Assembly: GCA_027022775.1 (NCBI GenBank)
Contig: JALVXO010000149.1
Span: 1 to 36,556 of the forward strand
From: Campylobacteraceae bacterium
GTDB taxonomy: Bacteria; Campylobacterota; Campylobacteria; Campylobacterales; Sulfurovaceae
Direction: 5' to 3'
DNA length: 36,556 nucleotides
How positions within the stretch are numbered: the first letter of the stretch is position 1; every line of letters starts with the position of its first letter. Under the pieces are notes generated by a model, which saw only the letters and a program-made list of their open reading frames with translations, had not been told where the DNA came from and did not search any database. Positions 18,825 to 31,159 of this stretch are shown piece after piece. Both the position numbers and the translations under genes were made by a program.

Positions 18825-18864
18825 TGCTCTTTCGGCTTTTGAAACTAAAATGTTCAATTTTTAT

Positions 18865-19041
18865 CCCAAATTTTGCATTAGAAGGTGCATCAGATGCGTT
18901 GGTGCTTGGCAGCGGGGATGCTGTAGCTTCGAAACCGCAGCATCCTGAGCAAAGCGAACCGCGAAGGCAAAAGGCTTTACTTCAGTGCCCATGCTGCCAA
19001 TGACCAATGCAGATAGAATATTGGCTAATGCAAATTTTGGG
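18865..19041 (+). repeat. Palindromic repeat element, copy 2
   Basis: CCCAAATTTTGCATTAGAAGGTGCATCAGATGCGTTGGTGCTTGG...GGCTTTACTTCAGTGCCCATGCTGCCAATGACCAATGCAGAT...CTAATGCAAATTTTGGG; outer arms nearly identical to the reverse complement of 1464-1626, centre different. Confidence 0.88.
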
Positions 19042-19071
19042 TTTACATAAATTTCAGCTTAAACCATCCCC

Positions 19072-30313: not shown

Positions 30314-30392
30314 GCTCTCTATTGCACTAAATTACCTTGGAGGCAAGGCTTTAATACCGCAAAAAAATTACCTGTAACTTGCATTAATAATA

Positions 30393-30590
30393 GAACCCTC
30401 TGAAAAACTATAAATTGAACGAAAGCTTTATAATTTTAGCAAAAAAATTTTATGTTAGCCGAAGGCTAAAAAAGAGCACTTAACCCCGAAGGGGCGCAAG
30501 AGGGAGCTCTTTTTAATAAAATTTTTTTGCGTTCGCGAAGCGAAAAATTATATCTGACTTGAGTGAAATTAATGGTTTTTCAGAGGGTTC
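30393..30590. mobile_element. MITE-like multi-armed palindromic element (198 bp)
   Basis: Perfect 16-bp termini GAACCCTCTGAAAAAC / GTTTTTCAGAGGGTTC, inner perfect 15-bp arm GCAAAAAAATTTTAT / ATAAAATTTTTTTGC, 9-bp AAAAAGAGC / GCTCTTTTT, plus three hairpins with GAA loops. Confidence 0.7.
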
Positions 30591-30673
30591 AATATAAAAC
30601 TCTTTTGTTGAATTTTCTGCAAAACCTAACTTTTGCCATTTTGCACCTTTTTGCACACTGTCACGGTTAAATA

Positions 30674-31000: not shown

Positions 31001-31159
31001 TTTTTCTCCTTTAAATTCCTGGTGATTTTTAACAAGATAGACCGATTATCGGTTATTTTTAACATTTTATCATTATTGTTTTTAATTTTAGTTATTAGCG
31101 CAGGCTAAAAAAGCGCTTTATCTCAAAATTAAATTAGCAGTTTTTAGAGCACTCAATTT

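Follow-up and report, generated by a model that had tools for sequence, protein, structure and literature searches.

The 198-bp palindrome at positions 30393–30590 of the window (the whole analysed stretch of 36,556 nucleotides, from an uncultivated Campylobacterales genome) is probably a MITE that is moved by an IS5-type transposase and carries a core folded on the + strand, which would act as an RNA insulator. The sequence comparisons strongly support the mobile-element reading, and the link between the MITE and an IS5-type partner appears well supported by them. The unusual part of the element is its conserved, strand-specific and transferable core. Least certain is the idea that this folded core may chiefly benefit the element, perhaps as a block to transcription across it.

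An initial annotation of the sequence had described nested arms of 16, 15 and 9 bp and three hairpins with GAA loops, and the position, the perfect arms and the hairpins all proved exact to the base (Table 1). Absent from it were a helix that pairs the segments lying between outer and middle arms and contains two tandem G-A motifs, a target duplication AATA/AATA flanking the arms, and a degenerate relic of a second copy at about 31077–31153. The RNA fold of the element reaches −76.3 kcal/mol compared to −41.3 ± 4.3 kcal/mol for dinucleotide shuffles, a value that was attained by 0 of 200 shuffles. No ORF of at least 80 aa lies within the 198 bp, and the element is located between two convergent genes.

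Table 1. Features of the palindromic element and its immediate flanks (positions of the window)
Feature	Position	Strand	Remarks
Whole element (MITE)	30393–30590	+	structured strand is +; fold z −8.1; four further near-complete copies in own genome
Outer arms GAACCCTCTGAAAAAC / GTTTTTCAGAGGGTTC	30393–30408 / 30575–30590		16 bp, perfect
Left terminal inverted repeat GAACCCTCTGAAAAACTAT	30393–30411	+	first 12 bases common to full-length IS elements
Right terminal inverted repeat	30572–30590	−	ends common to full-length IS elements
Left 4-bp target-site duplication AATA	30389–30392		just outside left arm
Right 4-bp target-site duplication AATA	30591–30594		just outside right arm
Left tandem G-A motif GAACGA	30417–30422	+	opposite 30561–30566; columns 90–98% conserved, not Watson–Crick paired
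Right tandem G-A motif GAGTGA	30561–30566	+	columns 92–100% conserved; two inner pairs covary AC/GU, GC/GC, AU/AU
Stem A, 5' arm TATAATTTT	30429–30437	+	pairs with 30544–30552; 96% paired, double changes at 5 pairs
Stem A, 3' arm	30544–30552	+	pairs with 30429–30437
Stem B, 5' arm	30439–30453	+	15 bp, perfect, pairs with 30516–30530; double changes at 13 of 15 pairs
Stem B, 3' arm	30516–30530	+	middle arm, pairs with 30439–30453
Hairpin 1, TTAGCC-GAA-GGCTAA	30455–30469	+	loop GAA/GCA/GTA/TTTA among copies
Stem C, 5' arm, invariant A-tract	30469–30477	+	9 bp, perfect; A/U-tract columns 94–100% conserved
Stem C, 3' arm, invariant T-tract	30506–30514	+	inner arm, pairs with 30469–30477
Hairpin 2, CCCC-GAA-GGGG	30484–30494	+	GAA loop kept in 34 of 52 copies
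Hairpin 3, TTCGC-GAA-GCGAA	30532–30544	+	double changes at all 3 pairs of its consensus helix

A genome-wide search for the termini and a look at target-site duplications had been proposed with the initial annotation, and both gave positive results. Further copies were found in the genome itself and in relatives. Four of those in the own genome are near-complete (C160, C53, C105, and C221; 93–96% identical), and they are accompanied by partial, larger and smaller variants as well as one 77-bp deletion derivative. The terminal inverted repeat that is common to the copies has the sequence GAACCCTCTGAAAAAC. Among 41 copies with placeable ends, 21 are flanked by exact 4-bp duplications, whereas 7.6 would be expected from permuted left and right flanks (0 of 5000 permutations); neither 5-base matches nor any other length tested were in excess in these 41 copies. 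Sites without the element in a same-genus relative revealed insertion polymorphism, which was seen in the genus that has no GAACCC ends and, in addition, for a single copy with GAGATC ends. At the window locus the flanks are not conserved within the genus at the DNA level in such an empty-site comparison. No phage or plasmid carrying the element was detected in the collections searched. A degenerate relic of the same element is located at 31077–31153 of the window, where the hairpin-1 region TTAGCGCAGGCTAAAAAAGCGC and the right end CAGTTTTTAGAGCACTC followed by AATT are recognizable and the left end is missing.

A candidate for the mobilizing partner emerged from the related genome G177, in which contig ends carry the terminus of the element followed by a transposase gene; IS ends and MITE occur together in this genome. 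With the last 66 residues of this transposase as a query, matches were obtained in 10 of 399 genomes of the order. The complete IS elements have a size of 1.21–1.27 kb (about 1.23 kb), carry GAACCCTCTGAA or a one-base variant at both ends, and share the first 12 bases and the type of 4-bp duplication with the palindrome. Their transposase of 326–330 aa matches NCBIfam NF033581 (IS5_4) at 243.8 and 251.8 bits (cutoff 140) as well as the Pfam families DUF772 and DDE_Tnp_1, and its nearest named plasmid match is ISPa41 with about 33% identity. One genome carries 12 copies of the IS, with duplications such as GATT/GATT and AGTT/AGTT; since these differ from AATT, a fixed terminal AATT is ruled out. 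The classical IS5 group uses a CTAR-type 4-bp target. The targets of the IS elements described here are WATT-like (AATT, TATT, GATT, and AGTT), so membership in the CTAR-target subgroup is not claimed. Core and IS co-occur in 3 genomes, which is above expectation given 15 genomes with the core and 10 with the IS out of 399 (P = 0.004). A transposase of this IS5 type was found neither in the assembly of the window, which is 81% complete, nor in most other element-bearing assemblies; in draft assemblies, the collapse of repeats could conceal it. A search for an autonomous element of the family that was based on the terminal inverted repeats yielded mostly chance matches outside the genus of the window. 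The full-length IS elements with the same ends and duplications in relatives suggest that a MITE mobilized in trans is the best account of the 198-bp element. With multiple copies, terminal inverted repeats, 4-bp target duplications, and an autonomous IS that shares its ends, the MITE half of the initial proposal (a MITE or a structured non-coding RNA/DNA element) is borne out.

The other half is supported too. The core of about 160 nt occurs in 15 of the 399 sampled genomes of the order, which belong to 8 genera from five families, with up to 22 matches in one genome. An alignment of 52 copies yielded a consensus fold of 60 pairs, 47 of which have changed at both positions without loss of pairing; such compensatory changes between copies had been a further suggestion of the first reading. 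There are 493 double-change cells compared to 132 ± 13 with shuffled partners and 52–100 with slid partners, and 94.8% of the cells are paired compared to 79.2% (shuffled) and at most 51.4% (slid), figures that overstate independence, given the relatedness of the copies and the use of one alignment both to derive the structure and to test it. Folding of the window copy as a single sequence yields the same helices as the consensus. The covariance model scores this copy at 209 bits on the + strand and 28 bits on the − strand, scores long forms outside its alignment at 159–193 bits, and has as its sole match in 701 kb of a relative one known copy, which is part of the alignment of the model. Conservation is highest in stem C, the helix with the A-tract and T-tract. 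No Rfam family matched at the gathering or a relaxed threshold, and a known RNA as the identity of the core was rejected on that account. The core is a folded strand that is kept by compensatory change over five Campylobacterales families and more than a deletion remnant, and the palindrome is clearly neither single-copy nor without conserved structure in relatives, a combination that would have spoken against the first reading. The argument that the same triloop in three different stems points to selection or shared origin is weaker, as only the loop of hairpin 2 is widely kept and the other two drift: in hairpin 1 the loop is GAA in 17, another GNA in 7, and UUUA in 9 of the 52 copies, and in hairpin 3 it is GAA in 16. 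Some copies occur in a long form of about 250–290 bp (L163, L164, and L169; C281, C41, and C255 of G000), which is common to several families and whose central loop holds an additional branched domain that includes a hairpin with the conserved loop AGCAGT and a covarying stem. A nested insert with CCCAAATTTTGTATTA-like inverted ends is present inside other copies (L072, L170, and L171).

Terminal repeats of at least two and possibly three kinds enclose the core; one genus has it without a recognizable terminal repeat. In G057, which belongs to another family, at least five copies have other common ends, CTGATATTACGCA...AAGGGAAAG, with a duplication type of about 8 bp (8 bp in the clearest case); an autonomous IS for these ends was not found. 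G344 contains one copy with AGAGGTTTTTGAAAAC ends and CTA on either side. In the genus without GAACCC ends (G358, G341, G282, G389, and G374), the outer arms vary from copy to copy, yet the two arms of any one copy still complement each other (20.4 for own arms versus 11.4 across copies; 0 of 5000 permutations). A pre-existing palindrome as the target was rejected for this genus, as orthologous empty sites in G282 contain none. The GAACCCTCTGAA ends also enclose other palindromes, namely CGTC-type repeats (L045 and L060) and, in Nitratifractor, a related palindrome (L106 and L107).

The polarity of the fold can be read from its outer helix, where GARYGA faces GARYGA and forms two tandem G-A/A-G mismatches around two covarying Watson–Crick pairs. 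The eight G/A columns are 90–100% conserved, compared to a mean of 80% for paired columns and 82% for other unpaired ones. Among inner pairs, 45 G-U events stand against 17 A-C events (p = 5e-4), with every pair type counted once per lineage. The conservation of the G-A positions and the excess of G-U over A-C argue for the + strand as the folded molecule, and the fold seems to be under constraint in single-stranded form with a fixed polarity, be it RNA or ssDNA. DNA, too, can hold G-T and sheared G-A pairs stably, so that the sequence is compatible with either molecule.

It is possible, if on balance doubtful, that the core is itself an undescribed structured module (RNA or ssDNA) which is mobile across the Campylobacterales and was captured by several unrelated transposon ends, i.e., the IS5 type with 4-bp duplications, the CTGATATTACGCA type of G057 with about 8-bp duplications, and the AGAGGTTTTTGAAAAC type of G344, and which in one genus does without a fixed terminal repeat and has copy-specific, self-complementary outer arms. 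Rather unlikely, in our estimation, is a fold of the + strand as ssDNA, formed during uptake or on the lagging strand, that a protein of the host or of the element recognizes. In favour of this proposal, GNA triloops as well as tandem G-A pairs form stably in DNA, and the complementary strand folds well under DNA parameters (z −7.6). Mini-hairpins of the d(GCGAAGC) type have been described as extraordinarily stable (PMC4686876). However, the IS5-type partner works on duplex DNA with terminal repeats, and a link to an HUH or tyrosine transposase was not found. The GCGCUUGCGU loop resembles the CUUG tetraloop of RNA, which also speaks against ssDNA.

A purely mutational origin has to be considered as well, since polymerase template switching is an established process that has been reported to create and maintain hairpins (PMC8794818). 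Switching between imperfect inverted repeats would perfect the arms and produce covariation without function, and it would be in line with whole arms that differ as blocks between lineages and with the copy-specific yet complementary outer arms of the one genus. But the opposed G-A mismatches should then vanish, whereas they are the best-conserved unpaired positions, and G-U and A-C should be equally frequent, which the 45:17 ratio contradicts; we consider this origin unlikely. Even more improbable is a cis element serving the host, such as a terminator or mRNA-stability hairpin at gene ends. It would agree with the convergent genes around the window copy and with the A-tract and T-tract of stem C, but only 7 of 42 scorable copies are situated between convergent genes (><) and 10 between divergent ones (<>), next to 14 in >> and 11 in << context, with neighbouring ORFs called by length only. 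Since there is no orientation or convergence bias relative to genes across these 42 copies, a host-regulatory role is not indicated, and a terminator or host-regulatory element was rejected on the basis of position. The compared sites in a relative also lack copies. In two genera, copies L165 (G358) and L205 (G302) occupy the same divergent intergenic region in opposite orientation.

According to the preferred explanation of an IS5-moved MITE with a folded core, the transposase would be supplied in trans by an IS that is or was present in the cell, recognize the GAACCCTCTGAA ends, and move the double-stranded element into A/T-rich intergenic sites, whereby 4 bp would be duplicated at insertion. 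The core would be retained for its action as a folded strand with fixed polarity, most probably, though with less certainty, as RNA under read-through from neighbouring genes. Its branched stem, with the central GC-rich hairpin between A-tract and T-tract, might stop transcription in both directions and so insulate the element together with its ends, and stem C with the two tracts is a possible terminator on either strand; against this role, a simple terminator scan with a loop limit of 8 called none. As a module, the core would have passed between different transposon ends. Bacterial MITEs are usually regarded as filler between the decayed ends of an IS. In the present element, the structure of the filler is better conserved than the ends and occurs together with different ones, an indication of selection on a folded strand that the transposon carries. 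Thanks to the many natural variants, the role of the fold is accessible to mutational tests, and the family might be added to RNA and mobile-element databases.

Among known repeats of the Campylobacterales, the GTAG/CGTC repetitive extragenic palindromes, which are present in Sulfurovum sp. NBC37-1 (PMC3733652), are likewise dispersed palindromes, and the CGTC type also occurs within GAACCCTCTGAA ends. They have only 20–40 bp and neither terminal inverted repeats nor target duplications, and an identity with them was rejected, as the 198-bp core is too long and lacks the GTAG/CGTC tag. CGTC-type repeats have been described as not associated with transposases (PMC3733652); the GAACCCTCTGAA ends around L045 and L060 are a possible route for their mobility. 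A second palindromic repeat family is located at 1459–1631 of the window, with 85-nt arms that are 74% complementary, in frame within a 390-aa membrane-protein ORF (1056–2228, − strand); another copy lies at 18860–19045 and pieces are found on C28, C22, and C160. It can be likened to the Rickettsia palindromic elements, which also lie in frame within ORFs. Yet another palindrome family, CACTCGATGGCGACAAAGGAGCAC..., occurs in the window's own family (L073, L080, L085, and L089 in G029; L074 and L081 in G015); its central hairpin is like that of the core, and L089 also contains the long-form domain. The literature searched for MITEs in Epsilonproteobacteria/Campylobacterota yielded nothing relevant. 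The element shares a covarying multi-branched fold with Rfam structured RNAs, but matches no Rfam family at threshold. With IS5-family elements (NF033581), which encode a DDE transposase, it has the terminal bases and the target duplication in common; unlike these, it is a palindrome without transposase, and nothing in the IS corresponds to its core. Reviewed bacterial MITEs such as Correia/NEMIS, ERIC/RU-1, RUP, and QMITEs (PMC2229807, PMC10969869) resemble it in size (~100–200 bp), terminal inverted repeats, target duplications, intergenic location, a transcript predicted to be foldable, and related IS transposases as movers. The element differs from them by its WATT-type 4-bp duplications, by a core that is common to unrelated terminal repeats and several host families, and by the tandem G-A motifs and the extensive compensatory change that were measured here.
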